Assembly (NCBI GenBank): GCA_037481875.1
Contig: JBBFKY010000001.1
Span: forward strand, 594,806 to 658,805
Reading direction: 5' to 3'
Length of the DNA stretch: 64,000 nucleotides
DNA from: Desulfosoma sp.
GTDB taxonomy: Bacteria; Desulfobacterota; Syntrophobacteria; Syntrophobacterales; DSM-9756
Shown here: positions 8,317-59,680 of the stretch, in pieces
Numbering within the stretch: position 1 is the first letter of the stretch
Layout of the letters: each line of letters opens with the position of its first letter
Notes under the pieces: generated by a model
What the model saw: only the letters and a program-made list of their open reading frames with translations
What the model was told of the DNA's origin: nothing
Databases searched by the model: none
Position numbers and translations under genes: made by a program

Positions 8317-8354
8317 AAGGCTGAAACACATTTCTATTCGGTGAGGAGTAGGAG

Positions 8355-27563: not shown

Positions 27564-27851
27564 GAGGAAGGCTCCTTCTTTCAGCGCGTTTTTCGGAAAC
27601 CTTAGCATCCGCCTGCTACGTTGACAAGACACTCCTGACAACAGGAACTCTCAAGCGAATGGTCCGCCGTGCTGTCAGCATCTCCTGCGAAAAAGATCAA
27701 TGGACGGTCTGATTTTTTGTAAAGTCCAACCCGAATGCCGTATTGATCGTTAGAACGGGTTGGGTGGGTAGGGTTTTGAAGTTCAAGCTTCTTCCGCATA
27801 AAAGGGCGGAAGTGGAAACCAGAACAGGTGTCGGGCATTGAGGAGGCTCCA

Positions 27852-29201
27852 ATGGCGAGAGTTTTTATCAGCCCTTTGGGTACCAACAAGTATCTACCGT
27901 GTTACTACGAAATTGACGGTCGAAGGTCGGCACGGCCGGTTAATTTTATTCAAGAAGCTCTTTTGGCCCACTGGTGTGTTTCATGGACCGCTGAGGATCG
28001 AATACTCATCTTGTGTACAAGAGAAGCCGAGGAAAGAAATTGGCTGAATGGTGGCAACTTTGAAAAGGGTTTGCGGACGCGCATCGAAGAGCTGAATCTT
28101 CCCGCTCAACGCCAGATGCTGCCTATTCCCGACGGCAAAAACGAAACGGAAATCATGGATATTTTCATGATCCTTATGGAAGCTCTTAAGCCTCAGGACC
28201 AGGTTTACCTGGACGTCACCCATTCCTTTCGATCTCTTCCTCTACTCCAAACAGTAATCCTCAACTATGCCAAAGTGCTCAAGGACATCCGCGTGGAACG
28301 CATTGTGTACGGTGCCTTTGAAACCATGGGAACACTGAAGGAAGTCGAGCAGAGACCCGTAGAACAGCGAATCGCCCCCGTGTTTGACCTCACCCCCTAC
28401 GACGCTCTCCTGGACTGGGCGAGAGCGGTTGATATTTTTCAGAAAGCCGGTCGTCCTCAGGAAATCAAGCGCCTTATAGGACGCAATCTTGGTGCTGTGT
28501 TCAATAAGCGACAAGAGCAGGATCAAAAGAAACTGGCGTGCTCTATGTCCACCCTAGGCAATCAGCTAGAAAACCTGTGCCTTAATCTGTCCGCCGCTCG
28601 AGGTCCTCATGTGCTCAAAGCTCAATCTTTCGACGAACAACTGGACGCGGTCGAAAACCAGAGGCTGATTCCCCCGCTGACGCCCCTTTTGGAGATCCTT
28701 CGCCGCAAAGTGCAAAGATTCAAGGTTCAGAACGAAACGACCAAAGGCTTTGAAGCGGCGGCCTGGTGCTTGGAACATGAGCTGATTCCCCAGGCGTACG
28801 TTCTGCTTCGAGAAACCATTCTGAGCGCTCTTTGTCGGTGGGCAGGTCAGGACCCTATGAACGAGAAAATGCGGGAAAATTTCTGGAGCGCCCTTTTACA
28901 TGTCGTGGCCACAGGCAAACCCGAAAAGGATTGGGAAGGTCTGCTTGCCCAAAAGCGGGACGAAGCCCTGCATGTTCTTAGGACTGGAGGTGAAGCGCTG
29001 AAGACGCTTGCCAAAAAGTTTGAAGCTTTAAGGGATCGCAGAAATGATCTGATGCATGCAGGCTGGAAAACCGATGCAAAATCTGCTCCGAGCCTTCTTC
29101 AATTCCTTCAGAACGGAGGACTGGAATCCCTTCGTACCGCTTGGGAAGCCTTTGAGGCAGCGGTTCCTCCACTTTCTCGTGGTCATGGAAAAGGGCAATG
29201 A
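27852..29201 (+). CDS. csx2: CARF-HEPN ribonuclease, Csx2 family (TIGR02221-like)
   Basis: A 449-residue type III CRISPR accessory effector. The N-terminal CARF domain (MARVFISPLGTNKYLPCYYE, with the ligand-loop DVTHSFRSLP at 121-130) should bind cyclic oligoadenylate. The C-terminal HEPN domain carries the RNase motif R-x4-H in RRNDLMHAGW (Arg397, His402). Activated relatives (Csx1/Csm6) cut RNA without sequence choice during infection. ATG 27852 is preceded by TGAGGAGG. The stop overlaps the csx20 start (ATGA), so both are made together. It is separated from the cas genes by the 18-kb array but belongs with the cas10 system. Confidence 0.9.
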   Translation: MARVFISPLGTNKYLPCYYEIDGRRSARPVNFIQEALLAHWCVSWTAEDRILILCTREAEERNWLNGGNFEKGLRTRIEELNLPAQRQMLPIPDGKNETEIMDIFMILMEALKPQDQVYLDVTHSFRSLPLLQTVILNYAKVLKDIRVERIVYGAFETMGTLKEVEQRPVEQRIAPVFDLTPYDALLDWARAVDIFQKAGRPQEIKRLIGRNLGAVFNKRQEQDQKKLACSMSTLGNQLENLCLNLSAARGPHVLKAQSFDEQLDAVENQRLIPPLTPLLEILRRKVQRFKVQNETTKGFEAAAWCLEHELIPQAYVLLRETILSALCRWAGQDPMNEKMRENFWSALLHVVATGKPEKDWEGLLAQKRDEALHVLRTGGEALKTLAKKFEALRDRRNDLMHAGWKTDAKSAPSLLQFLQNGGLESLRTAWEAFEAAVPPLSRGHGKGQ

Positions 29202-29593
29202 TGCGACAAGCGTTTGTTCTGCTCTCACACCGGCTCACTCCAGATCAGGAAAACGACTTGACACAAACGTGGCAAGCCTCTCAGGTGCGTGTCATGCCCG
29301 AAGAATTACAAAAGCTGTGGCAAGAAGTGCCCCCTGAAGCGGCTTCGGTTCGAGAATGGATTCAGCCTGTTTTGGAATGGTTGGCACAGGAAGCGGTTTC
29401 CGGCGATCTCGTCATCGTGCAAGGGGACTATGGAGCCACCTGTCTCACCGCATCATGGGCTTTGTCCAGAGGGCTCGTGCCGGTGTATGCCACCACAAAC
29501 CGAGTCCTTGAGGAAACGATTCAACCAGACGGTAGTGTGCTTCAAAAGCGCATTTTTCGACACATTCGGTTTCGACGTTATGAGTTCGTGTAA
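29198..29593 (+). CDS. csx20: Csx20-like CRISPR-associated protein
   Basis: A 131-residue soluble protein starting MMRQAFVLLSHRLTPDQEND, with LVIVQGDYGATCLTASWALS and a C-terminal QKRIFRHIRFRRYEFV. This pattern (an N-terminal SHxLTxxQ, a central QGDxGA and a final xFRHxxFRxY) matches what I remember of Csx20. Csx20 has recently been proposed, with Csx15 and Csx16, as a cyclic-oligoadenylate-degrading ring nuclease; I rely on memory for that. Its coupling to the csx2 gene fits an off-switch for the adjacent effector. Catalytic residues cannot be assigned from sequence alone. Confidence 0.75.
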   Translation: MMRQAFVLLSHRLTPDQENDLTQTWQASQVRVMPEELQKLWQEVPPEAASVREWIQPVLEWLAQEAVSGDLVIVQGDYGATCLTASWALSRGLVPVYATTNRVLEETIQPDGSVLQKRIFRHIRFRRYEFV

Positions 29594-29737: not shown

Positions 29738-31870
29738 TTATCGATAGGTGAACGGAAACCATCTGGCGGGTTGATCGGCGACGGCTTCCACCACCTCCTG
29801 CCAAGAGGTTTTGGAAAGAAGCTCGGCAAAATGGGGCGTGTGAAGACGACCTTTGGCCACTTCTTCAAGGACCTTAAAAACCCCTTCCTCCAGCCACGAC
29901 GTTAAAGCAAGTCCCTCTCGATACAGCCAGGCCGCGTGCAAGAGAGCCATAGGTTGTGCCGTGGAACCCAATTTTGTGCAAAATCGAAGCCCCTGTTCCC
30001 AGGCGATTTTCTTTTCTTGACGTGCATGAAGCCATCGTCCCACATTCCAAAGCCACAGTTGCCAAGGGTGTTCTGCCGGGGAACGGTAGAGCTGTTCGCG
30101 GCACCACTTTTCGTAAACAGGCAGTCGAAAATCCGTCTCGGCGAGAAAGCGTGCCAAAGCTGCATGTTGGTAACGCTGAAGCCTTGCGGGGTTCACTTTA
30201 TCGAGAGGAGATTCAATGTAGTTTTCGAGGGCCTCTTGAGCTTTGCCAACCTGATTGGCGTCTAGATAGGCATAGACGAGGTAGTGGTATTGTCGAAGAC
30301 AATCCTTTTTGAATTCCTGGAGCCGCCATTCACCAAAGGCATTCCACGCCTTGGATACCGACTGAATAGAGTCCCGAAGGTAAAGGGGACCGCAAAAGCC
30401 GAAGTTTTGCGCGATGGTTCCATAAATTTTCCCCAAACTGGGCATTGCGGGTTTGAGGCCTTTGACGGCATGGCTTTCCCGAATGGATTCCAGATGGTCT
30501 TGAATGTCCGTAAGCCATTCAGGAAGCTTCGCGTCAAAATGATAACGGCCATGGTATAAGGTAACAAAAAGCCGATTCCAAAAATCAGCCAAACGATGAA
30601 TCCCTTCGAGATAAAGGGGAAGTTGTTGGGAAAAAGTGTCGCGGCAAAACTTAGCCCAACACAGCGCTTCTTCGGTATTCCCGCGTTGCCCTGCCACGGC
30701 CCAGAGAAGATGAGCCAGCCGAAAGGACGTAAGAAAGGATTGACGGGCCAGATCTTGGACGTCCTCAAAACTTATAGGATTCAGCAAAGTTTCGACCCAG
30801 CCGAGGTCTTCAGAGGCATCGGAGAAAAGCCTTTCCAGGGAATCCGTAAAACTTTCTGCATCTCGAGGGTTTTGTAAAATTTCTTTCACCGCATGAGCGT
30901 ACAATCCGGAAAAACCGCTCCACCCTCGAAGGCGCGGATCCAGGGAACGAAGTCCCAGGGCCAGCTCTTGGGGCGACCCAAGCTTTTCGAAATCTTTGGC
31001 AAACCCTTTTCCCGTCACATCCCCTTTAAGTTCCCACAGGCATTCTGCAGCCTGGATATTCCTCACTTGCTCAACCCGCAATCCTTGTGCCGACGCCTGC
31101 GTTTCCGCCAATTCCAAAGGGCATATCAAGGTCTGAAAGCCTAAGGCCGCCAAGGCCTTCGCTTTTTCCCTGACAAAACCCACAGGGAGCACACACCCCT
31201 GTTCGTCCACATCCCCACTTGCAGCCACATGAAGGCCTCTTCGACCACCCATAGCGCCCAAGTGAGCTTCCCAGGCTCCCAGATAAGCCGGCAAAGCCCA
31301 GGATGGTCCCTCAATGCATGGGCTCGGTTCAGACGGAGGAAGCAAAGGAATAAAAACCATGGCTTTCCCCGTTCTGTGCCTAAAGAGCTCATGAGCCCTT
31401 ACCAGAGCACCTTGTGCAGCGGCATCCAGTCGGTCCATGATCCAGGAGGGGCTATGAAATTGCGTGCTAGAGGGAAGGGCTCCTAAAAGAGCCCAAAACA
31501 CGTGCGCTTTCTTTCCCTGAACCGTCGGGAGAGCCACCAAAGCCCATTGAGCTTGCAGCACGTAGGCCCAGTCCAGGCAAAGGCCCACGTCATGCGGTGT
31601 CATGAGCCGCTGCAAGACCTGTAAAAAACTATGGGCTCCTTTTTCTTCTCGTCGTCCCAAGGCGGCGGCGAAAAAGGCGGTCAGAAGAAAACGAGACCAA
31701 GCTGGATCCAGACCTGTGTGCAAGATTTTTAAAATATATTCGGCTTTTTGCGGCTTTTCAGGCCAACGAAAATGCCATGGATTTGTCCACTGAAACTTTC
31801 GTTCTTCAAGGCAGCCCCATTCATGCCACACACGCATTTCTTCCAACGACCAGGAGGGAGAAACATTCAT
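29738..31870 (-). CDS. Lon-like serine protease with helical-repeat C-terminus (CalpL-like candidate)
   Basis: A 710-residue protein. Residues about 170-270 align by eye to the Lon (S16) proteolytic domain: EGPSWALPAYLGAWEAHLG (nucleophile Ser190 in GPS), then LHVAASGDVDEQGCVLPVGF and VREKAKALAALGFQTLICPL (Lys236). The Ser-Lys gap of 46 residues is close to E. coli Lon (679/722). No AAA+ domain, SAVED domain or signal peptide is recognised. About 350 helical residues follow, TPR-like in style (HYLVYAYLDANQVGKAQEAL). ATG 31870 overlaps the upstream stop (ATGA). It is the last gene behind sigma-like and anti-sigma-like genes, so it probably cleaves one of them. The protease call is my inference from motif order. 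Confidence 0.6.
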   Translation of the reverse strand: MNVSPSWSLEEMRVWHEWGCLEERKFQWTNPWHFRWPEKPQKAEYILKILHTGLDPAWSRFLLTAFFAAALGRREEKGAHSFLQVLQRLMTPHDVGLCLDWAYVLQAQWALVALPTVQGKKAHVFWALLGALPSSTQFHSPSWIMDRLDAAAQGALVRAHELFRHRTGKAMVFIPLLPPSEPSPCIEGPSWALPAYLGAWEAHLGAMGGRRGLHVAASGDVDEQGCVLPVGFVREKAKALAALGFQTLICPLELAETQASAQGLRVEQVRNIQAAECLWELKGDVTGKGFAKDFEKLGSPQELALGLRSLDPRLRGWSGFSGLYAHAVKEILQNPRDAESFTDSLERLFSDASEDLGWVETLLNPISFEDVQDLARQSFLTSFRLAHLLWAVAGQRGNTEEALCWAKFCRDTFSQQLPLYLEGIHRLADFWNRLFVTLYHGRYHFDAKLPEWLTDIQDHLESIRESHAVKGLKPAMPSLGKIYGTIAQNFGFCGPLYLRDSIQSVSKAWNAFGEWRLQEFKKDCLRQYHYLVYAYLDANQVGKAQEALENYIESPLDKVNPARLQRYQHAALARFLAETDFRLPVYEKWCREQLYRSPAEHPWQLWLWNVGRWLHARQEKKIAWEQGLRFCTKLGSTAQPMALLHAAWLYREGLALTSWLEEGVFKVLEEVAKGRLHTPHFAELLSKTSWQEVVEAVADQPARWFPFTYR

Positions 31871-33147
31871 CGGTCTACAACCAAGAGTCGAAGATCCTGA
31901 AGTAACGGCTGATATTTTTTCGAGACAGGAAAGAGCAATCGAAAATAGCCCGTGGATCCATCCAGAGCCGATTCCAGGGGCTCGAGTTCACCATCCGAAA
32001 CAATCCATAAACCGTAGATGGAAGCTACATCTGAAAGGGGTTCAAGAATCCTTCCTCCCACGAGAACCCCTTTCGCACTGGATTGAAGGACGGTGATTTC
32101 GGCGCCCGCAGGTTTCAGAACGGGTGCAGATTCGTCACTGAGGCGAAGGAGTCTGACTGGGACGGTTTCACGGGCCGGGGCGGCCGCCAGAGGCAGGACT
32201 TCTTCGACCCACGGCGCCGTGAGCAGTGTTTTCACAGTAGGTTGGCTGTCTGGATCCAGCTGAAGCCATGGACTGAAGGTTTTTCGAAAGGTTTTCCTAT
32301 CCCGAAAAAAGGAGTCCAAGGTCCAGGCCGTCGGGTTTTCTTGAAAAGCCATTAAAGTTTCCAGAGTGCGTTGAGCGAAAAAAGAAGCCACCTCTACCTC
32401 GAGACGCTGAAACGCCGAGAGGAACGATGCGAAAGGGGATTGCGTCGAGATTTCATCGCAGAGGACAGCCTGGGATAGGTTTTGGGCTTTTTGGTGAATG
32501 ACGTTCAAAAGGGCGTTGGACACCGTGAAGATGGGATCGCTCACATGCTCTTTCAAGCAGGCGAAGGTGTTCCACGGTTCGACAAAAATTCCGGGCAGAA
32601 CCTCTACATCGCCGGGACCGGCGAGATCGGGAAAGTCATGGACAAGAGCGACTCGAAAAGCCGATGCCGTCTCTTCTACGGACTCGAGGACCAGCACCAA
32701 AGGAGCGTTGTAGAATCGGGATCTAGGGCCCCAGCCGGCCAAATCGGGTTGAAGGCGAACCACGTCTCCAGGCCCTGGGGATTTTGACGCGTTTACGGCG
32801 GCCGGTTTGAAGTCCTTTGTGCGATCCGGATCGAAAATGTTGAGGCAAATTCCTGAGACCCCATCGCAGCGCGGATCTTTTCCTGAGAAGGCGGGCGCTT
32901 CGCCTGCGTCCTGAGCGATCCGGTGGCTTGGAGTTCCACAGAGAGCCTTGCCTTCGCTTTTGTGTGCACGGTTTCGAAGGAGGGCATCGCGCTCTTGGTC
33001 ACACCAGGGACACGCGCTCAGGTGGCGCTGAAGAGCCTCGGGTATGGGGTCGGCAAGAAGAACGGCTTCGGGTGGACAACCCCGAGCTCTTAGGGCTTCC
33101 TCCCAAGCCAAGCGCAGAACGGCGGCACTGTGCGAGCTTTGGGGCAT
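31867..33147 (-). CDS. Zinc anti-sigma/MazF-like protein (CalpT-like candidate)
   Basis: A protein of 426 residues with no family that I can name outright. Near the N-terminus is a zf-HC2-type anti-sigma pattern: Cys24, then HLSACPWCDQE with His42, Cys46 and Cys49. About 80 residues of low complexity follow, then a segment at 126-215 that reads like a MazF/PemK SH3-type barrel (GPGDVVRLQP, APLVLVLESVEETASAFRVA, PGDVEVLPGIFVEPWNTFAC). The C-terminal 200 residues are unassigned. A zinc anti-sigma domain with a sigma-like gene upstream and a Lon-like gene downstream suggests a cleavable sigma inhibitor. ATG 33147 was preferred; an upstream ATG at 33174 overlaps the previous gene. Confidence 0.55.
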   Translation of the reverse strand: MPQSSHSAAVLRLAWEEALRARGCPPEAVLLADPIPEALQRHLSACPWCDQERDALLRNRAHKSEGKALCGTPSHRIAQDAGEAPAFSGKDPRCDGVSGICLNIFDPDRTKDFKPAAVNASKSPGPGDVVRLQPDLAGWGPRSRFYNAPLVLVLESVEETASAFRVALVHDFPDLAGPGDVEVLPGIFVEPWNTFACLKEHVSDPIFTVSNALLNVIHQKAQNLSQAVLCDEISTQSPFASFLSAFQRLEVEVASFFAQRTLETLMAFQENPTAWTLDSFFRDRKTFRKTFSPWLQLDPDSQPTVKTLLTAPWVEEVLPLAAAPARETVPVRLLRLSDESAPVLKPAGAEITVLQSSAKGVLVGGRILEPLSDVASIYGLWIVSDGELEPLESALDGSTGYFRLLFPVSKKYQPLLQDLRLLVVDR

Positions 33148-33160
33148 AGGCACTATACCT

Positions 33161-34282
33161 TTAGAGAGATGCATCTGAATCCGTAGAACCTTTCATCCAT
33201 GAACTACGGCACTGCCAGGCCGATTTACAAGCTTTCAGGATTTCTTCGAGAAACTCCGCAGCCAGATCATGATCTTCGTCCCAGGAAGACAAACCCGACC
33301 AGAGCAGGCAAAAATCCTTGATGCGAAGAATAAGTTGCGTGAGAAGATACCTGGCGCCGGCAGCTCCTCGATAGCCTGTTTCTCGGGCGATGTCCGCTAA
33401 TGTCCAGCGCATGGCGTAGTAGGCGTAGAAAACGAAGCGCTCTCGATCATCCCAGTCGGCGATCAGTTTCTGAGCGAGACGTGGCAAGTCTTGGCGCAAA
33501 AGTTCCTTTTCTTGCGACCCTTCGACGGAAACCTCAAAGTCGAGAGGAGATGAGTCATTTTCGTTTTCGGAACTCAAGTCGGAAAACAGCACTTCCCGCT
33601 CCGACGGAGGCATGGGCAGGTGCGCCATGAGGTACCGAGTCAGTTCGCGCACGGGAACCCAACATGGTTTTCCGAGACGTCGAACGGCTTCGTGCCAAAA
33701 AGAGCAGGCTACATGAACCACCTTTTCTTTGGTCAAACCTTCGGGGTTCAAACGCAAAGAGGCTTCAGGAGGCGGCCACAGGTGATAATTTTCTGAATGC
33801 AGGACGGCCGGATCGTCTTGCAAGGCTTCTTTCAAGGGCTCCTGAGAACACGCATAAGAGGCATGGCCGCCCTTTATGTCATATTGCACCTTGTCATGGT
33901 TATGAAGGCATTGGCGAAGTCGTCGATACAAGGCCTTGCCCGGACTTATCTGTTGGGTTCTGGAAAGGTCCAGCAAATGGCGCGTGTAACGATGCGCCAC
34001 AAAAGCGGCAAGGCGATGGGCTCCTTGATCGTAAAGCGATGCGAAGGCGTATCGCTCCTCCCAGGCATCCGCTTGCTGATTGGCGTAGAGCCACAGGGTG
34101 TTCACCATGGCCTGAATGGATGAGGTGCCTCGCTGTGGATAGTCCTGATGGGGAATGCCGTTGGAATCCGGAAGCAGACTATGCGGGATGGCTTTTCTTC
34201 TGACCTGGTTGAGTACGATGCATGCGGCCCGTTCCAGGACGGGGTGGCATTGCGGGGATGAGAGCCAATCCTTCCAGTTCAT
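33161..34282 (-). CDS. Sigma-factor-like protein (CalpS-like candidate)
   Basis: A 373-residue protein whose C-terminal part (about 265-325) resembles sigma-70 region 4: DLPRLAQKLIADWDDRERFV, YYAMRWTLADIARETGYRGA, then a helix RYLLTQLILRIKDF. This is a helix-turn-helix typical of binding the -35 element. The first 225 residues are helical and contain KALYRRLRQCLHNHDKVQY; I cannot align region 2 with certainty. An acidic linker (SDLSSENENDSSPLDFE) joins the two. It could also be a plain HTH regulator. Overlap of its start with the previous gene (ATGA) and of its end with the anti-sigma-like gene indicates one transcript. Confidence 0.55.
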   Translation of the reverse strand: MNWKDWLSSPQCHPVLERAACIVLNQVRRKAIPHSLLPDSNGIPHQDYPQRGTSSIQAMVNTLWLYANQQADAWEERYAFASLYDQGAHRLAAFVAHRYTRHLLDLSRTQQISPGKALYRRLRQCLHNHDKVQYDIKGGHASYACSQEPLKEALQDDPAVLHSENYHLWPPPEASLRLNPEGLTKEKVVHVACSFWHEAVRRLGKPCWVPVRELTRYLMAHLPMPPSEREVLFSDLSSENENDSSPLDFEVSVEGSQEKELLRQDLPRLAQKLIADWDDRERFVFYAYYAMRWTLADIARETGYRGAAGARYLLTQLILRIKDFCLLWSGLSSWDEDHDLAAEFLEEILKACKSAWQCRSSWMKGSTDSDASL

Positions 34283-34725
34283 GGACCTTGTACCGGCTCA
34301 AGACACGTTTCAGGCACTTTACCCCAAAAGCTCAGTGGTTTCCAAAAGGCGGGATCCGATGGAAGCGGAAATCGAAAAGCTTCAATGAGGTAGCTTCGGC
34401 GATCCATGACCTTGCCCGTGATTTCCAAGGTACAGCCCTGGCGGATGAAGCGAGCGGCCATTCGGCCTTTGGTGGAGCAGGGGCAGACCTCGACGGCCAT
34501 GGGATGCGTGATCCTGAGGACAAATATAGGGTGTGTGCCGAAAGGATGTCGTTGACGTTCCGGGAAAAAGAACGTCTGTTTGAGAAGTTCTCGATCGGAG
34601 GCCCCACCGAAAAGCATGCGCTCTTCCCAATACATAGGCGACAGCCGTCGTAGGGCTGCGCCCAGGACCTCCCATAGTGAGGGTGGCTTTTTCACAGGAG
34701 GGTTTTCCTGTTCGGCTTGGCGCAT
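34279..34725 (-). CDS. Unknown small protein in the cad1-protease operon
   Basis: A protein of 148 residues from ATG 34725 (MRQAEQENPPVKKPPSLWEV). The core YWEERMLFGGASDRELLKQT, HPIFVLRITHPMAVEVCPCS and TLEITGKVMDRRSYLIEAFR looks like a beta-rich fold, with a CPC motif at its centre. A MazF-like barrel is possible but unproven. A longer version from ATG 34869 would add a strongly hydrophobic segment (RLACLVVSLLICLLSW) and make it membrane-anchored. Neither start has a good ribosome site. The stop overlaps the sigma-like start. No function assigned. Confidence 0.5.
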   Translation of the reverse strand: MRQAEQENPPVKKPPSLWEVLGAALRRLSPMYWEERMLFGGASDRELLKQTFFFPERQRHPFGTHPIFVLRITHPMAVEVCPCSTKGRMAARFIRQGCTLEITGKVMDRRSYLIEAFRFPLPSDPAFWKPLSFWGKVPETCLEPVQGP

Positions 34726-34904
34726 GTCGGAACCCACCCTAATGAAGGTACAAGCTCCTTGTCTATCCAGCCATCCTATCTCTCCACCACGATATTGGTT
34801 AGACCATGAAAGAAGACAAATCAAGAGAGAAACCACTAGGCATGCTAGCCTGGACAGCACTTGGCACATGGGTTGAGTTTGAGGCGAGCGATAAGAAAAT
34901 CAGG

Positions 34905-35501
34905 TTAGATGAGTTGCAGTGCGAGGCGGGACCAAAGCTCCAGGGGACGGTGGTGCACCTGTCTAAGAGGGATCCATTGAAACTCGTGCAGTTCGGTACC
35001 TGGCCGAAGGGCCTTGGGCGTCAAAACCTGCATGCGAAAGACGAGTCCAAGGTGAACGAGACCCACTGAGGATTCTTCCTCATTAATGATTCCCTTAAAG
35101 GTGAGTTGGCAATGTTCGGGCAGGGTCGTAAACTCTTCGGAAAGCTCGCGGTACAGACCTCGCTCCAGTTGGGAAGCTAATTCCCCCCTTCCTGCCTCGG
35201 CATCTTCACGAATCACATGGCCTCCCAAACCCACTGAGTCCCGGCCGTGGAGCCTTTTTTCCGAGCCTTTTCGCCGGTAACAACCCACCCGGCCATGGAT
35301 GTCCAACATGACCACGTAAGGGATGATCTGCTTGTACTGCTGGTCCTGTTCTACTTTCTCTCTGGGTTTGTAGCCGTAGCCTGCGGCCGCGATCACCTCA
35401 AGGCATTGCTCATAGCGCAGAGAAAGAGCGGTTCGCCTTTGGAGCCAGGGCTTAGGAAGAGCGTGCCGGGGTACACACAAGACATGTTCTTGTAAACTCA
35501 T
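34905..35501 (-). CDS. Nudix-like hydrolase coupled to Cad1
   Basis: A 198-residue protein with a Nudix fold signature: IIPYVVMLDIHGRVGCYRRK leads into GLGGHVIRED (93-100) and, after an insert of roughly 11 residues, YRELSEEF (117-124). The box G-x5-E...RE-x2-EE is recognisable, but the spacing between its halves is longer than standard. Nudix enzymes hydrolyse nucleoside diphosphate derivatives. The start ATG overlaps the cad1 stop (ATGA), so the two are made in fixed ratio. A natural guess is that it acts on the product of the deaminase (an inosine nucleotide such as ITP) or on cyclic/linear oligoadenylate. Confidence 0.7.
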   Translation of the reverse strand: MSLQEHVLCVPRHALPKPWLQRRTALSLRYEQCLEVIAAAGYGYKPREKVEQDQQYKQIIPYVVMLDIHGRVGCYRRKGSEKRLHGRDSVGLGGHVIREDAEAGRGELASQLERGLYRELSEEFTTLPEHCQLTFKGIINEEESSVGLVHLGLVFRMQVLTPKALRPGTELHEFQWIPLRQVHHRPLELWSRLALQLI

Positions 35502-37675: not shown

Positions 37676-37907
37676 GTCACTTTTGAGGGTAGTAGTCTTG
37701 GTTATAAACGTGAGGTTGTTCATACCAGATACTAGAAAAGCCGTCCATGCCCAAGGGATGAGGCGGCAAGGTTGTCACATGTGGCGAGAGCCTTTTAGTA
37801 TCGCGTGATGTTTTGAACGATTCCTCCAGCGACACGGTCTGCCATGCTTTCTCGATAACGTTGGACGGGGATTGTTGGTTTGCGGAGCCGGCCGAAATAA
37901 CGGTTAA

Positions 37908-38462: not shown

Positions 38463-38525
38463 GCTGTTGGGTTTATCTTAGAGCCCGAATCGAGCGGACC
38501 CGCTCCCTAGACCCGCCATCGAACG

Positions 38526-41500
38526 GTCTCAATCCCCTCAAATCGGGGCCAGCTTTCGGACGTAGCTCGGCTCTTGCGGGTCCATGTCCGAACAGTCTAT
38601 GTCTTAATCCCCTCAAATCGGGGCCAGCTTTCGGACTTACCACTCGGTCCAAGCTGAGGTCAAAGACACTTGCGTCTCAATCCCCTCAAATCGGGGCCTG
38701 CCTTCGGACTAAATATGCTCAAGCCATGAAAAAAGCTGGGGTTGAGTCTCAATCCCCTCAAATCGGGGCCTGCCTTCGGACAACAGGCTCATCGTCGAGC
38801 CTGTTACAAGCTCGCAAGTCTCAATCCCCTCAAATCGGGGCCTGCCTTCGGACCAAGACTTCTAGACCATGAATTCGGCCAAGCAGCAGGTCTCAATCCC
38901 CTCAAATCGGGGCCTGCCTTCGGACTACCCACGGGGGCCTTATGCACTACCGCCGCCGCGGGTCTCAATCCCCTCAAATCGGGGCCTGCCTTCGGACACC
39001 ACAAAGCCCCCGGGCAACCCCCGGGGGCTTTGGTCTCAATCCCCTCAAATCGGGGCCTGCCTTCGGACACAAACATCTCTGTAGCGTTCGGCGACAACGT
39101 CTGTCTCAATCCCCTCAAATCGGGGCCTGCCTTCGGACAGGGACATATCCGAGCAGGTCCCCCAGGGCCGATGAGTCTCAATCCCCTCAAATCGGGGCCT
39201 GCCTTCGGACGAGGGAACCCAACAGCCCGCCCGAGGCCACCACAAGTCTCAATCCCCTCAAATCGGGGCCTGCCTTCGGACCTATGAAGATCACATTCGT
39301 AAAAAGAAGGCAAGGGTGTCTCAATCCCCTCAAATCGGGGCCTGCCTTCGGACCTATCAAATGCTCGGGCTCGGGGCTTTGGCATGAAGGTCTCAATCCC
39401 CTCAAATCGGGGCCTGCCTTCGGACGTATTGAAAAAATGGGGGAGTTCCGAGCCATACCAAGTCTCAATCCCCTCAAATCGGGGCCTGCCTTCGGACCTA
39501 TTGCGCCTTTGTGCGCTCGGGCTGCGTCATCTGGTCTCAATCCCCTCAAATCGGGGCCTGCCTTCGGACCTGGTTAGAGTCTTCCGCACTAACGCCGCTG
39601 GGGAAGTCTCAATCCCCTCAAATCGGGGCCTGCCTTCGGACGAGGGAACCCAACAGCCCGCCCGAGGCCACCACAAGTCTCAATCCCCTCAAATCGGGGC
39701 CTACCTTCGGACAAGACTTGACAATGGCTTTGTCAAGTTGCCTGCAAGTCTCAATCCCCTCAAATCGGGGCCTGCCTTCGGACCTTCTAAATGCACAATG
39801 GCACAAGCACATAGTGCTTGTCTCAATCCCCTCAAATCGGGGCCTGCCTTCGGACCAACGTTGTAAAGACCCTCCTAATCGATCTTATGAGTCTCAATCC
39901 CCTCAAATCGGGGCCTGCCTTCGGACCAAAAGACGTACCAGCTACATATGGAGACTGGTTATGGTCTCAATCCCCTCAAATCGGGGCCTGCCTTCGGACG
40001 AGACCAAGTTTCAGAAAATACCGTGCGCGAATGGGTCTCAATCCCCTCAAATCGGGGCCTGCCTTCGGACGTCAAGTTTTGTGAAAGAGTTCTTGGGCTT
40101 TCTCAGTCTCAATCCCCTCAAATCGGGGCCTGCCTTCGGACACGAAAAGCTTGCCCGGGAGGTGCGGATTTGGTCCGGTCTCAATCCCCTCAAATCGGGG
40201 CCTGCCTTCGGACCTAATGAGTGGCCCGACGTAAAACTTACCCTCCGCGAGTCTCAATCCCCTCAAATCGGGGCCTGCCTTCGGACAAAGAAAGCAAATT
40301 ACTTCAGATATGCGAAACCATGTCTCAATCCCCTCAAATCGGGGCCTGCCTTCGGACAAAGCCTGCACAAGCAGCGCTTGGCCATTGACCTGGTCTCAAT
40401 CCCCTCAAATCGGGGCCTGCCTTCGGACCAAGGGAACCCAACCACAAGCCCGCCCCGAGGCCAAGTCTCAATCCCCTCAAATCGGGGCCTGCCTTCGGAC
40501 GCAAAGCGGCAAATGCCCGCTTCCACGACACCTACGAGTCTCAATCCCCTCAAATCGGGGCCTGCCTTCGGACCACCTAGGCGAGGGACCCCCTCGCCTG
40601 GAGTGGAAAAGTCTCAATCCCCTCAAATCGGGGCCTGCCTTCGGACTCTTCATGCGAAAGAAACTTGAAACTCCACCTAGGCGTCTCAATCCCCTCAAAT
40701 CGGGGCCTGCCTTCGGACTATGCAGAGAATAGCAAAACTCACCAAGATTAGAGGGTCTCAATCCCCTCAAATCGGGGCCTGCCTTCGGACGAAATTTCCG
40801 CTGCCGTAAAGTCAACCCCAGGCCAAGGGTCTCAATCCCCTCAAATCGGGGCCTGCCTTCGGACTCATCCTCAACACGGCGTGGTCCGGATCTTCCGGAC
40901 TGTCTCAATCCCCTCAAATCGGGGCCTGCCTTCGGACCAAGAATGGAGGTTCCGACTATGCAGAGAATAGCAAGTCTCAATCCCCTCAAATCGGGGCCTG
41001 CCTTCGGACGCTACGTCTCTCCACAACAAGCAAGCCAATTAATAAGTCTCAATCCCCTCAAATCGGGGCCTGCCTTCGGACCCACCCGCGTACAGGCACA
41101 AAGCTCAGAACTTCCGGCGTCTCAATCCCCTCAAATCGGGGCCTGCCTTCGGACAACAAAGCCCGCCCGAGGCCACTCCAAGCCGCCGCCGTCTCAATCC
41201 CCTCAAATCGGGGCCTGCCTTCGGACGAAAGGAAGGCCCAAGAAACCAGGAAGGCGCTGGTGTCTCAATCCCCTCAAATCGGGGCCTGCCTTCGGACCTG
41301 ATGGGATCACGGCCTTGTGGGCCACCCGCGAAGGTCTCAATCCCCTCAAATCGGGGCCTGCCTTCGGACCTGATGGGATCACGGCCTTGTGGGCCACCCG
41401 CGAAGGTCTCAATCCCCTCAAATCGGGGCCTGCCTTCGGACCCTTCCTGGCGCCCTCTGGGCGCTTTGCGACCACCGTCTCAATCCCCTCAAATCGGGGC

Positions 41501-44500
41501 CTGCCTTCGGACACAAGCCCCCGGGTAACCCCAGGGGCTTTGATCTTTGTCTCAATCCCCTCAAATCGGGGCCTGCCTTCGGACGTCGCTTTGCGACCAC
41601 CTCGCCTCTAATACCCTGCGTCTCAATCCCCTCAAATCGGGGCCTGCCTTCGGACTGAAATATTAACCCTAACCCACGGCGGCGTTGCACAGTCTCAATC
41701 CCCTCAAATCGGGGCCTGCCTTCGGACCCACAAAAAGCCCAAGCAGGGAGCGGGAAACAAGTACGTCTCAATCCCCTCAAATCGGGGCCTGCCTTCGGAC
41801 CAAGGACGATGCAGAAGAGGTTCTCTACTCAGCAGGGTCTCAATCCCCTCAAATCGGGGCCTGCCTTCGGACCACAACATTGGCGCCGTGGAGAGGGTTG
41901 GCGCCGCTGTCTCAATCCCCTCAAATCGGGGCCTGCCTTCGGACGCACGCCTACGTGCGCCTTGACGGAGGGGTCGGCCTGTCTCAATCCCCTCAAATCG
42001 GGGCCTGCCTTCGGACATTGCGGCGACGGGGACATGTTCCGGCCCGAGAAGTCTCAATCCCCTCAAATCGGGGCCTGCCTTCGGACACAAAGGGACCTTG
42101 GAGTATGAAAACGGTTGCTGAAGTCTCAATCCCCTCAAATCGGGGCCTGCCTTCGGACGCAAAGCGGCAAATGCCCGCTTCCACGACACCTACGAGTCTC
42201 AATCCCCTCAAATCGGGGCCTGCCTTCGGACACACGTAATTTGGGCAATCGGCACCAAGGCAGAAAAGTCTCAATCCCCTCAAATCGGGGCCTGCCTTCG
42301 GACAAATCAGGAAAGGAGGGCACTATGCTTGACATTGGTCTCAATCCCCTCAAATCGGGGCCTGCCTTCGGACCCCTTGGGGCTTTCCTCTTTTAGTCCC
42401 TCGTAAAGGTCTCAATCCCCTCAAATCGGGGCCTGCCTTCGGACCCGAACTGACCGGCAACGTCCCTGGTACTTACCAGGGGAGTCTCAATCCCCTCAAA
42501 TCGGGGCCTGCCTTCGGACCCCACGTCCAGGACCTCGGCTGGGCAAAGTTCAAGGAGTCTCAATCCCCTCAAATCGGGGCCTGCCTTCGGACATGTTATG
42601 TTCTGTCTTTCAAGAGGAATGGTGGTTGTCTCAATCCCCTCAAATCGGGGCCTGCCTTCGGACCTAATATCTCAAGGCCAAGGCCTTAGCGCCTTGGCCT
42701 TTGTCTCAATCCCCTCAAATCGGGGCCTGCCTTCGGACTTTTCGTGGGCGGACAGGAGGGATGTTTCACTGTAGTCTCAATCCCCTCAAATCGGGGCCTG
42801 CCTTCGGACTATGAAGAAAAAGACCAGCGCCAACACCGCACAGGTCTCAATCCCCTCAAATCGGGGCCTGCCTTCGGACCTAGCCACAAAGTGGCCTGAA
42901 GCCACCTTGTGCATGTCTCAATCCCCTCAAATCGGGGCCTGCCTTCGGACCATGAAAGACGACAGACTTTTCGGTCCGTATCGGACGTCTCAATCCCCTC
43001 AAATCGGGGCCTGCCTTCGGACGAAAATACCGTGCGCGAGTGGCTTCAAAAGCCGCTTGTCTCAATCCCCTCAAATCGGGGCCTGCCTTCGGACCCGAGG
43101 CTCCTTCCCAACCTCCCGACCTGCTCCGAGGGTCTCAATCCCCTCAAATCGGGGCCTGCCTTCGGACTAGAATATCCAAAAAAGAAGCTCATCATTCAGG
43201 GATCCGTCTCAATCCCCTCAAATCGGGGCCTGCCTTCGGACCCCTTGAGGACCCTGCGGGTCCCGCGGTGCTTGTCAGGTCTCAATCCCCTCAAATCGGG
43301 GCCTGCCTTCGGACAACGCGTACTGCACGCCAAGCAACTAACCTGCCCAAGGTCTCAATCCCCTCAAATCGGGGCCTGCCTTCGGACCCAACAAGGCGCA
43401 AGCGAAGCTTCGGATGGCCGCTCGGTCTCAATCCCCTCAAATCGGGGCCTGCCTTCGGACGACCACGTGCCGACTGAAATTCCTCCGCAGGGGATCGTCT
43501 CAATCCCCTCAAATCGGGGCCTGCCTTCGGACATCTCGGGCCAGATCAGCTTGCCTGGCAAACTCGCGTCTCAATCCCCTCAAATCGGGGCCTGCCTTCG
43601 GACACTCGGATCTATCAGGTAACGTAATCCTGACCAAGGTCTCAATCCCCTCAAATCGGGGCCTGCCTTCGGACTTCACCTACAAGTCTATCGAGTTCGA
43701 CGAAGATTTGGTCTCAATCCCCTCAAATCGGGGCCTGCCTTCGGACAGCGGATCGTGGCCCACCTGTGCCCGAAGCTGGAGGTCTCAATCCCCTCAAATC
43801 GGGGCCTGCCTTCGGACAGGGCGACCTCGGAGCCTAAGAGAAAGAAGGAACGGTCTCAATCCCCTCAAATCGGGGCCTGCCTTCGGACGCATCTATCGTC
43901 ACCAAGACCACAGGATACTCACCGTCTCAATCCCCTCAAATCGGGGCCTGCCTTCGGACACCATGAGAGGCGAAATTATCGACACGTTAGTTCTGTCTCA
44001 ATCCCCTCAAATCGGGGCCTGCCTTCGGACCATGCAGCTTACGGACTCGTGCGGATAACGCGCACTGTCTCAATCCCCTCAAATCGGGGCCTGCCTTCGG
44101 ACACACCTAACACCACATTAGAGAGGAGTTAACCATGTCTCAATCCCCTCAAATCGGGGCCTGCCTTCGGACCGACGAGCTCAGAGCTCTTGCCGACAGG
44201 CAAGAGCTCCCGATGAGTCTCAATCCCCTCAAATCGGGGCCTGCCTTCGGACTATGGCTGCCTTGCTCTATCCCGAAACCGTCGAGGAGTCTCAATCCCC
44301 TCAAATCGGGGCCTGCCTTCGGACAGTCTATGCCAACACAATAGGGCAAGAATGCCTACGTCTCAATCCCCTCAAATCGGGGCCTGCCTTCGGACACTAT
44401 GTCTCCCAGGGGCTTTTCTTTTGGTGCGCCTGTCTCAATCCCCTCAAATCGGGGCCTGCCTTCGGACTTGCAGGCCTCCCGGCCTCTATTCCGGCCTGTC

Positions 44501-47500
44501 GGGTCTCAATCCCCTCAAATCGGGGCCTGCCTTCGGACTTCCAAAGATCAGCCCTAGTGTTGGCGCAAGCCAAGTCTCAATCCCCTCAAATCGGGGCCTG
44601 CCTTCGGACGATAGAGGTGCCTGACAGGCTCAAGTGGCCTGCGGGTCTCAATCCCCTCAAATCGGGGCCTGCCTTCGGACTCAAGGCAGCCATAAGGCGC
44701 CTTGTCCATCCAATGTCTCAATCCCCTCAAATCGGGGCCTGCCTTCGGACTTGAGACATGTTTTCAGGGTGCGGGTGCTTGGGGAATTTGTCTCAATCCC
44801 CTCAAATCGGGGCCTGCCTTCGGACACCAGCTTCTCACGACTAAAGAGGCCGCCAGGTTCGTCTCAATCCCCTCAAATCGGGGCCTGCCTTCGGACCAAC
44901 AAAGTAAGTTGCTAGAAGGCTGTGGTGCAACAGTCTCAATCCCCTCAAATCGGGGCCTGCCTTCGGACTTTGTTAATCACGGCGATATCGAGATCCGGCT
45001 AAGTCTCAATCCCCTCAAATCGGGGCCTGCCTTCGGACTCAACCGTTCAGCTCTGATGTTGGCTTGCGCCAACGTCTCAATCCCCTCAAATCGGGGCCTG
45101 CCTTCGGACCTATGGAAAGAAAAGAAAAAGACTGGTTCTGGATCAGTCTCAATCCCCTCAAATCGGGGCCTGCCTTCGGACACAAGCCTGTAGACTAACC
45201 GCCTTGGGGTCCCGCAGTCTCAATCCCCTCAAATCGGGGCCTGCCTTCGGACTCAACCGTTCAGCTCTGATGTTGGCTTGCGCCAACGTCTCAATCCCCT
45301 CAAATCGGGGCCTGCCTTCGGACCTATGGAAAGAAAAGAAAAAGACTGGTTCTGGATCAGTCTCAATCCCCTCAAATCGGGGCCTGCCTTCGGACACAAG
45401 CCTGTAGACTAACCGCCTTGGGGTCCCGCAGTCTCAATCCCCTCAAATCGGGGCCTGCCTTCGGACAGATTGTGGTTCCGTGGTAAGGTTGTCTGGTTCC
45501 AGTCTCAATCCCCTCAAATCGGGGCCTGCCTTCGGACGGAAGATTTGTGAACAGTCAGGAGAAGAGTCCGCTGGTCTCAATCCCCTCAAATCGGGGCCTG
45601 CCTTCGGACTCGAGGCCGTGGACCGCTGGCTCCAATGGCGCAACAGTCTCAATCCCCTCAAATCGGGGCCTGCCTTCGGACACAATGTTCAAGCTAAGGA
45701 AATGGCACTATGAGGATGTCTCAATCCCCTCAAATCGGGGCCTGCCTTCGGACCATCCGCGGTATGGCTTGGTGCGCATCTTGCGCACGTCTCAATCCCC
45801 TCAAATCGGGGCCTGCCTTCGGACTTCAAATAACCAGCAAAGGAATCCTGAACCACGAACGTCTCAATCCCCTCAAATCGGGGCCTGCCTTCGGACGACA
45901 ACGGACCATGTGTCGACGTAGCCAAGGCCAAGTCTCAATCCCCTCAAATCGGGGCCTGCCTTCGGACGCACTTTACCGACTGCCGCCCCGAGCTTGCTTT
46001 GAGTCTCAATCCCCTCAAATCGGGGCCTGCCTTCGGACACATGCTCGATATAGACAACTGGACACGGTCCGAATGTCTCAATCCCCTCAAATCGGGGCCT
46101 GCCTTCGGACTATGAAGCTAATGATCCAAAAATCAAGCGAAAACTGTCTCAATCCCCTCAAATCGGGGCCTGCCTTCGGACACGAACCGAGTTCGTCCCA
46201 AGCGTTCACGGGATCGTCTCAATCCCCTCAAATCGGGGCCTGCCTTCGGACCTATGCTAGCGGTAGAATTTCCAAAAAAGAAGCTCCGTCTCAATCCCCT
46301 CAAATCGGGGCCTGCCTTCGGACGTTGACGAGACTATGCTAGCGGTAGAATTTCCAAGTCTCAATCCCCTCAAATCGGGGCCTGCCTTCGGACCCAGCAC
46401 TAGGTGACAACTTTGCAAAGGAGAAGAATTATGTCTCAATCCCCTCAAATCGGGGCCTGCCTTCGGACACGGCGCTTGTGGTGCCGTCTGCAAGCTTTGC
46501 TGGGTCTCAATCCCCTCAAATCGGGGCCTGCCTTCGGACATATGCGTGCGGGAAGAAGGCCTCAGACCGGCAATATGTCTCAATCCCCTCAAATCGGGGC
46601 CTGCCTTCGGACTCATCGCGTGGTATCCAGGTGACCCTGGAACCTACCGTCTCAATCCCCTCAAATCGGGGCCTGCCTTCGGACATTGCTATGCCGTAAA
46701 GGCATGGCGATCACGGGCGGTCTCAATCCCCTCAAATCGGGGCCTGCCTTCGGACGCACTTGTTGGGGCGTGTTGCGCAACGGGTCAAGCAGTCTCAATC
46801 CCCTCAAATCGGGGCCTGCCTTCGGACAAAGGATGGAAGACACTCCCGGCAGAGGAAGCCCGGTCTCAATCCCCTCAAATCGGGGCCTGCCTTCGGACAG
46901 GATTTGGTTTGGAATGTCTGCCTGGATCAAGCCGTCTCAATCCCCTCAAATCGGGGCCTGCCTTCGGACTATGCAAAGTCAGACTTTAACGAGGTTGCTG
47001 TTACGTCTCAATCCCCTCAAATCGGGGCCTGCCTTCGGACAAGCGGATTCGAGCATACAATATTTCACACGGAAAGTCTCAATCCCCTCAAATCGGGGCC
47101 TGCCTTCGGACATTGAGCATCGGCGGATTGAGGCAGACGAAGCATGGTCTCAATCCCCTCAAATCGGGGCCTGCCTTCGGACCTTATTCGATGTGCGCCG
47201 ATGGAAAGACGAAGAGTTTGTCTCAATCCCCTCAAATCGGGGCCTGCCTTCGGACATTCATCAAAACAAACTTCTAAGCCAAGACAAGTGTCTCAATCCC
47301 CTCAAATCGGGGCCTGCCTTCGGACATACCACCAATTCTGACGTGTCCAAACCACTCTGAGTCTCAATCCCCTCAAATCGGGGCCTGCCTTCGGACCTAC
47401 TACTCGCTGGATGCCCTTCGGGCCTTTGTTCTCGTCTCAATCCCCTCAAATCGGGGCCTGCCTTCGGACTTTTGTGCGTCCTATGCGCACTTGTTGGGGC

Positions 47501-50500
47501 GTGTTGTCTCAATCCCCTCAAATCGGGGCCTGCCTTCGGACCATCTATGAGCGAATTGAAGTGTCCCTCTTGTGGAGTCTCAATCCCCTCAAATCGGGGC
47601 CTGCCTTCGGACCCAAAGAGGCCGCCAGGTTCTTGTCGGAGGCCTTGTCTCAATCCCCTCAAATCGGGGCCTGCCTTCGGACCCCCTACAACCTGGCATG
47701 CTGGCGCTACAACGGGGTCTCAATCCCCTCAAATCGGGGCCTGCCTTCGGACTGACGGTTGAATGGCCATATTACAGCGTGTGGCTAGGTCTCAATCCCC
47801 TCAAATCGGGGCCTGCCTTCGGACACTTTGCCTCGAGGGTGGAGGTTCGGGACCTCCACGTCTCAATCCCCTCAAATCGGGGCCTGCCTTCGGACCAAGG
47901 CCTTCAGGCCTCTCAAAGCCGCCGCCTCGAGGTCTCAATCCCCTCAAATCGGGGCCTGCCTTCGGACATCGAGGGAACACAAAAGCCCGCCCAAGGCCTT
48001 CAGGTCTCAATCCCCTCAAATCGGGGCCTGCCTTCGGACTTTGAGTGGATCGAGTCCCGTTGGGTTTTGTACAGTCTCAATCCCCTCAAATCGGGGCCTG
48101 CCTTCGGACGTAGCGAGGCCGTGGAATGAGGCCAGAGTTGCTCACGTCTCAATCCCCTCAAATCGGGGCCTGCCTTCGGACACCTCTTGCCTGCCCTGAT
48201 TCCTCATGGGGACGAGTCTCAATCCCCTCAAATCGGGGCCTGCCTTCGGACTGTTGTTGCGTCTAGTGCAGAAACACAAAGAATCCGTCTCAATCCCCTC
48301 AAATCGGGGCCTGCCTTCGGACATGTGCCTTTGCTGTGGCGGTGGAGCGGTAGCGAGGTCTCAATCCCCTCAAATCGGGGCCTGCCTTCGGACGCCACAG
48401 CAGCCCTTTGGGTCCTTGAGGACCCGCAGGTCTCAATCCCCTCAAATCGGGGCCTGCCTTCGGACGAGGAACCATGGTAGAACAAGAATGCATCTTTCAA
48501 GTCTCAATCCCCTCAAATCGGGGCCTGCCTTCGGACAAACCCGGACCACGGGCGGGCGGGCGGCTCAAGCCCGTCTCAATCCCCTCAAATCGGGGCCTGC
48601 CTTCGGACCGCTATCGGGGCGTGGGGCCTCCCTTCGTGTCCGAAGGTCTCAATCCCCTCAAATCGGGGCCTGCCTTCGGACTCGAAATCCCGCTCGAGGC
48701 CGAAAACCCAACTGGTCTCAATCCCCTCAAATCGGGGCCTGCCTTCGGACACGGCATTTCGGCCCTATGGGCCACAAGAGTGGAGTCTCAATCCCCTCAA
48801 ATCGGGGCCTGCCTTCGGACAGATGGTGGGCCACAACGTGACCTACGATCAGACGTGTCTCAATCCCCTCAAATCGGGGCCTGCCTTCGGACATTGTGCG
48901 CGTGACTGCTATGCCGTGAAGGCATGGGTCTCAATCCCCTCAAATCGGGGCCTGCCTTCGGACTCGGGGCCTTCTCTTTTAGTCCCTTGCAAACGGAGTC
49001 TCAATCCCCTCAAATCGGGGCCTGCCTTCGGACACGGGCAGCTCCCTTGGAAGCTGTGGCGACGGGGGTCTCAATCCCCTCAAATCGGGGCCTGCCTTCG
49101 GACTTTTAGTTTGCCGAGCAATGTGACGAGCCTCACGGTCTCAATCCCCTCAAATCGGGGCCTGCCTTCGGACCATACCGCCAATTCTGACGTGTCCAAA
49201 CCACAAAGAGTCTCAATCCCCTCAAATCGGGGCCTGCCTTCGGACCTTATTAAGACGTGCGAAAAGATTCTTGGCGTCAAGTCTCAATCCCCTCAAATCG
49301 GGGCCTGCCTTCGGACATGAAGGAAGACACTCTTATTAAGACGTGCGAAAGTCTCAATCCCCTCAAATCGGGGCCTGCCTTCGGACATGAATCCAGGAAA
49401 GCTCATCGAATTCGGCGAGTCGTCTCAATCCCCTCAAATCGGGGCCTGCCTTCGGACGGAACCATGGTTATCACTCTGACGAAAAGATCCGAGTCTCAAT
49501 CCCCTCAAATCGGGGCCTGCCTTCGGACTAAACGACACGAGAAAACTAAGAACGATCATAACGTCTCAATCCCCTCAAATCGGGGCCTGCCTTCGGACTC
49601 AAGCCGCCGTCTCGAGGGCAACCACGGCCTCAGGGTCTCAATCCCCTCAAATCGGGGCCTGCCTTCGGACCTCGCCGGCTCCTCCGCCGCTGGACTACAC
49701 GCCGCGTCTCAATCCCCTCAAATCGGGGCCTGCCTTCGGACACAATTGTGCCGAATGTCCATGATATGTTCTATTGCGTCTCAATCCCCTCAAATCGGGG
49801 CCTGCCTTCGGACAAAAGGAACCACAACAATTGTGCCGAATGTCCATGAGTCTCAATCCCCTCAAATCGGGGCCTGCCTTCGGACATACAGGGAACACAA
49901 AAAGCCCGCCCAAGGCCAAGGTCTCAATCCCCTCAAATCGGGGCCTGCCTTCGGACAGATTGTCCCGCTCATAAACGGCCAAAAAACATCCTGGTCTCAA
50001 TCCCCTCAAATCGGGGCCTGCCTTCGGACACGAGGGTGGAGGTTCGGGACCTCCACGACCCCAAGTCTCAATCCCCTCAAATCGGGGCCTGCCTTCGGAC
50101 CTATGACATCCTCAAGGAGCATAAAACGCTCAAGTTGTCTCAATCCCCTCAAATCGGGGCCTGCCTTCGGACCCATCCACGACCGCACGTGAGGCGCTGA
50201 CATTGCGCGTCTCAATCCCCTCAAATCGGGGCCTGCCTTCGGACGCGCCGTGGCTATAGTTTCTCGGACTACCTGTTTTGTCTCAATCCCCTCAAATCGG
50301 GGCCTGCCTTCGGACCTCTCTCCAAAGCAGGTTGCAAAGCTAATCGCGCGGTCTCAATCCCCTCAAATCGGGGCCTGCCTTCGGACACAGTGTGACCGCT
50401 ACGGCCACAGCAAGCCCGCAAGTCTCAATCCCCTCAAATCGGGGCCTGCCTTCGGACTCATTCCCTACCATGTTTACAGCGATGACGGCACGAGTCTCAA

Positions 50501-56150: not shown

Positions 56151-56521
56151 TCTTAGCTTGTCTGGGCGCTTACTGTCAAGCTTTCCAAGCCTGTTTCGGA
56201 GCATCCCGCGCCAAGGTTCCCCAGCTTAACGCAAAAACGAGCCTTCACTTTCGTTTAAAACCTCGTAAGCGTTTGACTCTACACTGTTATACTTTTGCGG
56301 AGCACCTCCCAGGCACCCCTCTCGAAAATTCAATACCTTAGTCACCAATGCCCAATATGCCCTAACATCCTCCGCATCTCTTGCAAAAATCTCAGTTTTT
56401 CATGGAAACTTGATGTGTTAAACCTTTCAACCCCGCTCCGGAATGTGCCCCGTAGATGGTTCGTCAACAACCCAAAATCGAGGAGTACAACAGTAGGCCG
56501 ATGGAAGTGCGTCTGCTACGG
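56151..56521 (-). promoter_or_regulatory. CRISPR leader
   Basis: About 370 gene-free bases lie between cas2 and the newest repeat. This is where transcription and spacer integration should be controlled. On the minus strand TTGACA (56179-56174) stands 23 bases before the first repeat, with CTAAGA after 17 bases abutting it; the -10 match is poor. A better -10-like TATAAC lies further up near 56285-56295 without a good -35. The promoter position is therefore open; the leader assignment rests on repeat polarity and on adjacency to cas1-cas2. Confidence 0.7.
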
Positions 56522-57911: not shown

Positions 57912-57993
57912 GAGGAATGTCCTCCAGTGTTCATCCGACTGTCGAGGAAAACACAACAGTCCACCCCTACAGGAACCTCTCCCCTTAGCATGG

Positions 57994-59634: not shown

Positions 59635-59680
59635 GGAATTCCCCTCTTCTTCGCAAAGATCAAGCTCGAGTGTCGCCGGC

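Follow-up and report, generated by a model that had tools for sequence, protein, structure and literature searches.

A gene of Desulfosoma sp., found in a 64,000-nucleotide stretch of DNA that we call the window, codes for TPR-Lon, a protein that by its predicted fold and its Ser-Lys dyad is an S16 peptidase. We consider it probable that TPR-Lon supplies the proteolytic step in a Calp-like transcription-signalling cassette of type III CRISPR, in which a TPR superhelix replaces the SAVED domain and target recognition leads to an active Lon domain, cleavage of an anti-sigma factor and release of a sigma factor. Direct support for this idea comes from the predicted fold, the conservation of the dyad, the operon, the linkage to type III loci and the presence of the same TPR module in other proteins. 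The CRISPR locus and the sigma/anti-sigma operon that surround the gene define what the protein is for. Since a protease with an invariant active site carries a repeat domain instead of a known sensor, and is encoded beside a sigma factor and a protein that is likely to inhibit it, TPR-Lon probably turns virus detection into a switch of gene expression, using a trigger that has not been described before. The protein and its parts are located in the window as follows:

29738..31870, minus strand: TPR-Lon protease, 710 aa, with a helical N-terminus (about residues 1-107), an S16 Lon domain (about 108-282) and a TPR part (about 290-710)
31025..31549, minus strand: S16 (Lon) proteolytic domain, residues 108-282, from the AlphaFold model and a VIA-align Z of 19 to Lon
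31301..31303, minus strand: codon of Ser190, the predicted nucleophile, invariant in 33/33
31163..31165, minus strand: codon of Lys236, the predicted general base, invariant in 33/33
29741..31003, minus strand: TPR module with the motif (Y/L)GTxAQNxxFCGP, a putative input or coupling part, matching MalT domain III and common to the DUF3800-TPR proteins
29741..29758, minus strand: FPF[TS]YR peptide, conserved in the alignment at the extreme C-terminus of TPR-Lon

The TPR-Lon gene has an ATG start, and its first 4 bp overlap the preceding gene at its stop codon. An AlphaFold2 model of the protein, made with an alignment of 14 relatives as input, has a pLDDT of 89, and its residues 108-282 superpose (VIA-align) onto BsLonBA with a Z of 19.4 and an rmsd of 2.6 over 166 residues, and onto E. 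coli Lon with a Z of 19.3, the rmsd to Lon domains ranging from 2.6 to 2.7. A Foldseek search with the model placed E. coli Lon at rank 1 and CalpL at rank 5. The S16 fold that the original prediction had proposed for residues 170-270 is thus predicted with high confidence. Assignment to Lon by sequence required a profile, because single-sequence searches of Pfam, NCBIfam, PADLOC and, by phmmer, the PDB gave sub-threshold Lon matches at best (Pfam Lon_C, E 0.14; PDB phmmer, E 0.24). The profile of the 14 relatives matched the Lon protease domain 1xhk in the PDB with an E of 6.2e-12, as well as many other Lon structures, and matched CalpL 7qda more weakly (E 0.0036). The absence of an AAA+ and of a SAVED domain, also part of that prediction, agrees with the model and with searches of the protein for AAA+ (Pfam at E<=1, NCBIfam at E<=0.1) and for SAVED (Pfam), which found neither; furthermore, no SAVED domain passed the Pfam cut-off in the 21 genomes searched. 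The proposed lengths of the flanking parts had to be revised. Since the Lon domain begins near residue 108, the unassigned N-terminal part is a stretch of about 107 residues, helical in the model, and not one of 165, and the downstream helical repeats, correctly foreseen as such, cover about 385-420 residues instead of about 350 and match a TPR superhelix. Residues 326-710 superpose on MalT domain III (VIA-align Z 18.4, rmsd 5.4 over 308 residues), and a Rap structure matches the C-terminal half with a Z of 16.9. Pfam TPR models had no match to TPR-Lon by sequence, and a profile of the TPR module had no sequence similarity to any PDB chain, Csx29 included.

Ser190, in the motif GPS, and Lys236, in REK, lie at the residues that had been given for them, and their conservation, proposed as a check, turned out to be complete: both are invariant in 33 of 33 relatives, including two with another C-terminus and several with about 25% identity. 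Such invariance in divergent relatives means, at the level of sequence comparison, that the dyad is genuine and that selection maintains it.

In the window the cassette has the order u196 - sigma - anti-sigma - TPR-Lon, with overlaps of 4, 14 and 4 bp. This order is repeated across the relatives, short contigs showing its downstream part only. The partners of TPR-Lon are:

31867..33174, minus strand: anti-sigma candidate, 435 aa, the presumed substrate, with a zinc-finger motif C33...H51xxxC55xxC58, a MazF-fold domain at 129-236 and a C-terminal beta domain
33161..34282, minus strand: sigma-factor-like protein, 373 aa, with region 4 (TIGR02937); its profile matches FliA/ECF sigma factors in the PDB
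34279..34869, minus strand: u196, the conserved first gene of the cassette, whose true start is probably near 34719

A C...HxxxCxxC motif is typical of zinc anti-sigma factors, and the equivalent of the anti-sigma candidate in a diverged locus, L075, matches Pfam zf-HC2 above the cut-off. In the model of the candidate (pLDDT 82) residues 129-236 superpose on E. coli MazF with a Z of 10.0 and an rmsd of 3.2 over 103 residues, a fold that is also a likeness to CalpT, reportedly a MazF homologue. The anti-sigma profile matched neither Csx30 nor, significantly, anything else in the PDB. The sigma-like protein matches TIGR02937 with an E of 0.0017, short of the curated cut-off of that model; its single-sequence Pfam match is weak (E 0.13), and its profile matches FliA/ECF sigma structures in the PDB with an E of 8e-5. 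A comparison of the u196 and anti-sigma profiles, seeking a shared MazF-like part, gave no match, and a search of the regions upstream of the operons for a common bipartite promoter motif gave none above shuffled sequence.

The cassette is placed among CRISPR genes, which in the window are:

27828..29201, plus strand: Csx1-type CARF-HEPN effector
29198..29593, plus strand: Csx20, above the NCBIfam cut-off
34905..35501, minus strand: NUDIX-like protein (Pfam NUDIX, E 0.05), adjoining cad1 also in L077 and L135
35498..37723, minus strand: CARF-adenosine deaminase of the Cad1 type (PADLOC CARF_ADA, E 4e-205)
38524..56340, plus strand: CRISPR array of about 246 repeats with the 36-nt repeat GTCTCAATCCCCTCAAATCGGGGCCTGCCTTCGGAC, end approximate
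56865..57956, minus strand: Cas1, homologous to the Cas1 part of a PADLOC-identified RT-Cas1 in L134, with relatives that adjoin the same cassette in L096 and L097
61312..62388, plus strand: Cas6, followed by cas10-csm3-csm4-csm5

Cas10 starts at 62392 and extends past the end of the window, with its HD and GGDD motifs intact, and is followed, beyond the window, by RAMP proteins that are, by their sequences, Csm3-, Csm4- and Csm5-like. With Cas10 and these proteins coming directly after Cas6, the locus is a type III CRISPR locus, most likely of subtype III-A.

Relatives of TPR-Lon came from an alignment-based scan of contigs, an earlier scan having returned none. Full-length relatives, with 27-55% identity, are present in 14 of the 39 genomes of the window's order, the nearest named MAGs being Desulfacinum, Desulfosoma and Syntrophobacteraceae, and also in further groups of Desulfobacterota. 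A scan of 84,980 species genomes for the motif [ILV]AQNxGFCG gave matches only in records of the Deltaproteobacteria / Desulfobacterota type, and collections of plasmids and of phages yielded no TPR-Lon. Of 31 TPR-Lon loci, 22 have one or more of the CRISPR markers that were searched for; the rest are contigs of less than 12 kb, plus L075 (Desulfofervidaceae), which has cmr3, cmr4 and cmr5 nearby. When at least 12 kb of sequence was available, CRISPR-associated genes were found in every locus (20/20, L135 counted). In the 11 genomes with lon and cas10 on one contig, the distance between them is 5-31 kb, a proximity with a chance of 0.2-1.8% in each. At the genome level, Cas10 is present in 10 of the 14 carriers within the order vs 9 of the 25 other genomes, a modest association (p 0.036), and the four carriers without Cas10 have their loci on contigs of 6-12 kb. 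The GGDD cyclase motif is intact in all 24 Cas10 proteins examined, nearly all of them from genomes with a TPR effector, and the HD motif was not seen in two of them. Two decayed copies of TPR-Lon were also observed, one a shortened frame of 212 aa (L032 8945-9583, in G005) and the other a fragment with internal stops (G011:C40:87553-88074).

Two further sets of loci bear on the TPR module. L095 and L099, in genomes G326 and G221, have the u196-sigma-antisigma-Lon cassette with the dyad intact and a C-terminus that the TPR profile does not match:

L095 5464-7584, minus strand: Lon with another C-terminal domain, its cassette lying outside CRISPR
L099 12604-14736, plus strand: Lon with another C-terminal domain, its cassette lying outside CRISPR

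Cas10 was not detectable in these two genomes, and was present in 5 of the 5 TPR-carrying genomes tested outside the window's order. The other set comprises four proteins with an N-terminal DUF3800-like domain and the TPR module, the genes of L075/L132 and L120 lying in the same cluster as TPR-Lon:

L075 3945-6125 (L075/L132), plus strand: DUF3800-TPR protein
L120 9981-12122, plus strand: DUF3800-TPR protein
L133 169-2376, plus strand: DUF3800-TPR protein
L142 9493-11685, minus strand: DUF3800-TPR protein

The module of TPR-Lon matches these proteins by hmmsearch (L142, 1.1e-13; L133, 3.8e-10) and by hhalign (91.5% for L075, 72% for L120), and reciprocally a DUF3800-TPR profile matches the TPR-Lon of genome G211 with an E of 1.4e-11. 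They have a GTxxQNxAFxAP-like motif and end in FTFNY[HYR] or LPFNYC; the tail of the shared module can be written FxF[TSN]Y. Pfam supports DUF3800 weakly (E 0.0066, for L120); the DESG motif is conserved. Their neighbours are cmr genes, Cas6 or Csx1/Csx20, and the TPR module thus occurs alongside both Csm and Cmr complexes. DUF3800-TPR is apparently an undescribed type III effector candidate. As one TPR module is found on Lon and on a DUF3800-like domain, it behaves like CARF or SAVED, one input serving several effectors. Taken with the cassettes of L095 and L099, this makes the TPR part look like the piece that couples TPR-Lon to its signal, a role that we read from comparison of the sequences. 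That the module represents a new kind of input is a realistic possibility. On a fuller proposal our judgement is evenly divided: the module would be a new type III CRISPR input, separate from both CARF and SAVED and interchangeable between Lon and a DUF3800-like domain, and would read a Cas10-made messenger or dock on activated Csm/Cmr, its conserved FxF[TSN]Y(R) tail taking part in the switching.

Several known systems come close to this arrangement. In the Calp system of Sulfurihydrogenibium (CalpL/CalpT/CalpS; PDB 7qda, 8b0r, 8b0u), which likewise combines an S16 Lon with an anti-sigma/sigma pair at a type III locus, CalpL activated by cA4 cleaves the anti-sigma CalpT and releases CalpS (PMC11417357, PMC12751052). 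However, CalpL ends in a SAVED domain, by which cA4 is bound and degraded, whereas TPR-Lon has a TPR superhelix of about 420 residues ending in FPF[TS]YR, and the TPR-Lon cassette has an extra conserved gene, u196. In the type III-E system Craspase/CASP (Cas7-11, TPR-CHAT Csx29, Csx30, Csx31, CASP-sigma), the TPR-CHAT protease acts with Cas7-11 and cuts the sigma inhibitor Csx30, so that a TPR-protease, a sigma inhibitor (the presumed substrate in our case), a sigma factor and an extra conserved gene are found in both systems (PMC10028731). Craspase differs in its CHAT cysteine protease, to be compared with the Ser-Lys site of Lon, and in its single-protein effector Cas7-11, in contrast to the Cas10 and multi-subunit Csm/Cmr of TPR-Lon loci, and the anti-sigma and TPR profiles have no sequence match to PDB Csx30 and to Csx29, respectively. 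The SAVED-CHAT CRISPR proteases are also type III-linked proteases fused to an input module, but with a different protease fold and a SAVED sensor (PMC11229360). Finally, Lon, LonB and MtaLonC have the same protease fold and Ser-Lys dyad, but TPR-Lon has no detected AAA+, carries the TPR module instead, and is in an operon with sigma and anti-sigma genes. TPR-Lon is therefore distinct from CalpL, as it has no SAVED, and from Craspase, as it has no CHAT and Cas10 is present, and it most likely works like both. No description of TPR-Lon or DUF3800-TPR in type III loci was found in the literature searched, although the supplements of surveys may list them.

From the match of the cassette to Calp and the parallel to Craspase we infer that target recognition would activate TPR-Lon, that the anti-sigma would be cut and that the sigma factor would be freed. 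In the resting state the zinc-finger/MazF-fold protein would hold the sigma factor and TPR-Lon would be inactive. Once a Cas10-Csm or Cmr complex recognises target RNA, the Ser190-Lys236 site would be turned on by way of the TPR module, the signal being a nucleotide made by Cas10 or contact with the complex in its activated state; TPR-Lon would then cleave the anti-sigma encoded one gene upstream, and the released sigma factor would redirect transcription. The proteolytic activity, its substrate, the use of the TPR part as a switch and the sigma response are inferred steps in this scheme, the anti-sigma being suggested as the target by gene order and by the Calp and Csx30 precedents.

Two alternatives question whether TPR-Lon is a CRISPR protease at all. 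Lon-like domains of RadA and ComM serve other roles, and they superpose nearly as well as Lon itself (ComM, Z 17.6; RadA, Z 17.3), so the domain might be a non-proteolytic scaffold; an invariant Ser190 and Lys236 in 33 divergent sequences would not be expected of a dead scaffold, however, and the partner is a candidate anti-sigma, as in the proteolytic Calp system, which makes this reading unlikely. The cassette could also be a general Lon-like protease/sigma system for stress response that lies near CRISPR genes by chance, as L095 and L099, which have it without CRISPR and without Cas10, might indicate. Yet precisely these two have a different C-terminus, the TPR-bearing versions lie within the short distance of cas10 given above where both are on one contig, and other type III-linked proteins carry the TPR module too, so that we consider a chance neighbourhood very improbable.

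If TPR-Lon is the protease arm of a Calp-like cassette, as we favour, its trigger may be of two kinds. The TPR module might dock on the Csm/Cmr ribonucleoprotein, target binding then activating the protease allosterically and without a second messenger, in the way that complex-activated TPR-CHAT/Csx29 of type III-E comes to cut the sigma inhibitor Csx30 (PMC10028731). A TPR superhelix with an invariant C-terminal peptide is suited to protein-protein contact, but the TPR profile resembles no PDB chain, Csx29 included, every Cas10 examined keeps its cyclase motif, and, as the module accompanies both Csm and Cmr, the docking surface would need to be conserved across subtypes; we hold this reading tentatively, at somewhat less than an even prospect. 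Alternatively, the module might sense cOA or SAM-AMP made by Cas10, as a functional equivalent of CARF/SAVED. The original prediction had set a nucleotide sensor aside, which goes further than the evidence allows: with GGDD kept in every Cas10 examined, a product of Cas10 may be what the TPR module senses. The CARF effectors Csx1 and Cad1, with Csx20, are found alongside in many loci, and one module serves two different effectors, as with CARF/SAVED. GGDD retention is in keeping with nucleotide signalling. The Csx1 and Cad1 of the same loci could account for it, however, and we know of no TPR that binds cOA; we hold sensing by the module as tentatively as docking. As for the wider claim of that prediction, TPR-like repeats are plausible regulators of the protease, a proposal that the exchange of the C-terminus and the shared module support by comparison.

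To our knowledge, every type III accessory effector with a known trigger either responds to a nucleotide made by Cas10, sensed by CARF, SAVED or one of a few other domains, or makes direct contact with the effector complex, as Craspase does. If two unrelated effectors in loci with Cas10 share a TPR module, it would add another signalling route to these. Sulfate-reducing bacteria carry TPR-Lon beside type III CRISPR immune genes, and after CalpL and Csx29 it would be a further CRISPR protease architecture ending on a sigma factor, which suggests that ways of reprogramming transcription in response to viruses have arisen repeatedly.

Other features of these loci were also observed. The Cad1-type and NUDIX-like genes recur side by side (window 34905-37723, L077 14151-16759, L135 3252-5961), which suggests a conserved pair; the substrate of the NUDIX enzyme might be the nucleotide after its deamination. 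A conserved trio, made up of Cas1, a TOTE-type archaeo-eukaryotic primase and a TPR protein, is found at 56865-61123 in the window and also in L028, L096, L097 and L135, and often adjoins the TPR-Lon cassette. In L134 a reverse transcriptase-Cas1 fusion (7897-10338, plus strand) lies directly downstream of the TPR-Lon gene. The CRISPR array of the window, with its roughly 246 copies of the 36-nt repeat, is very large.
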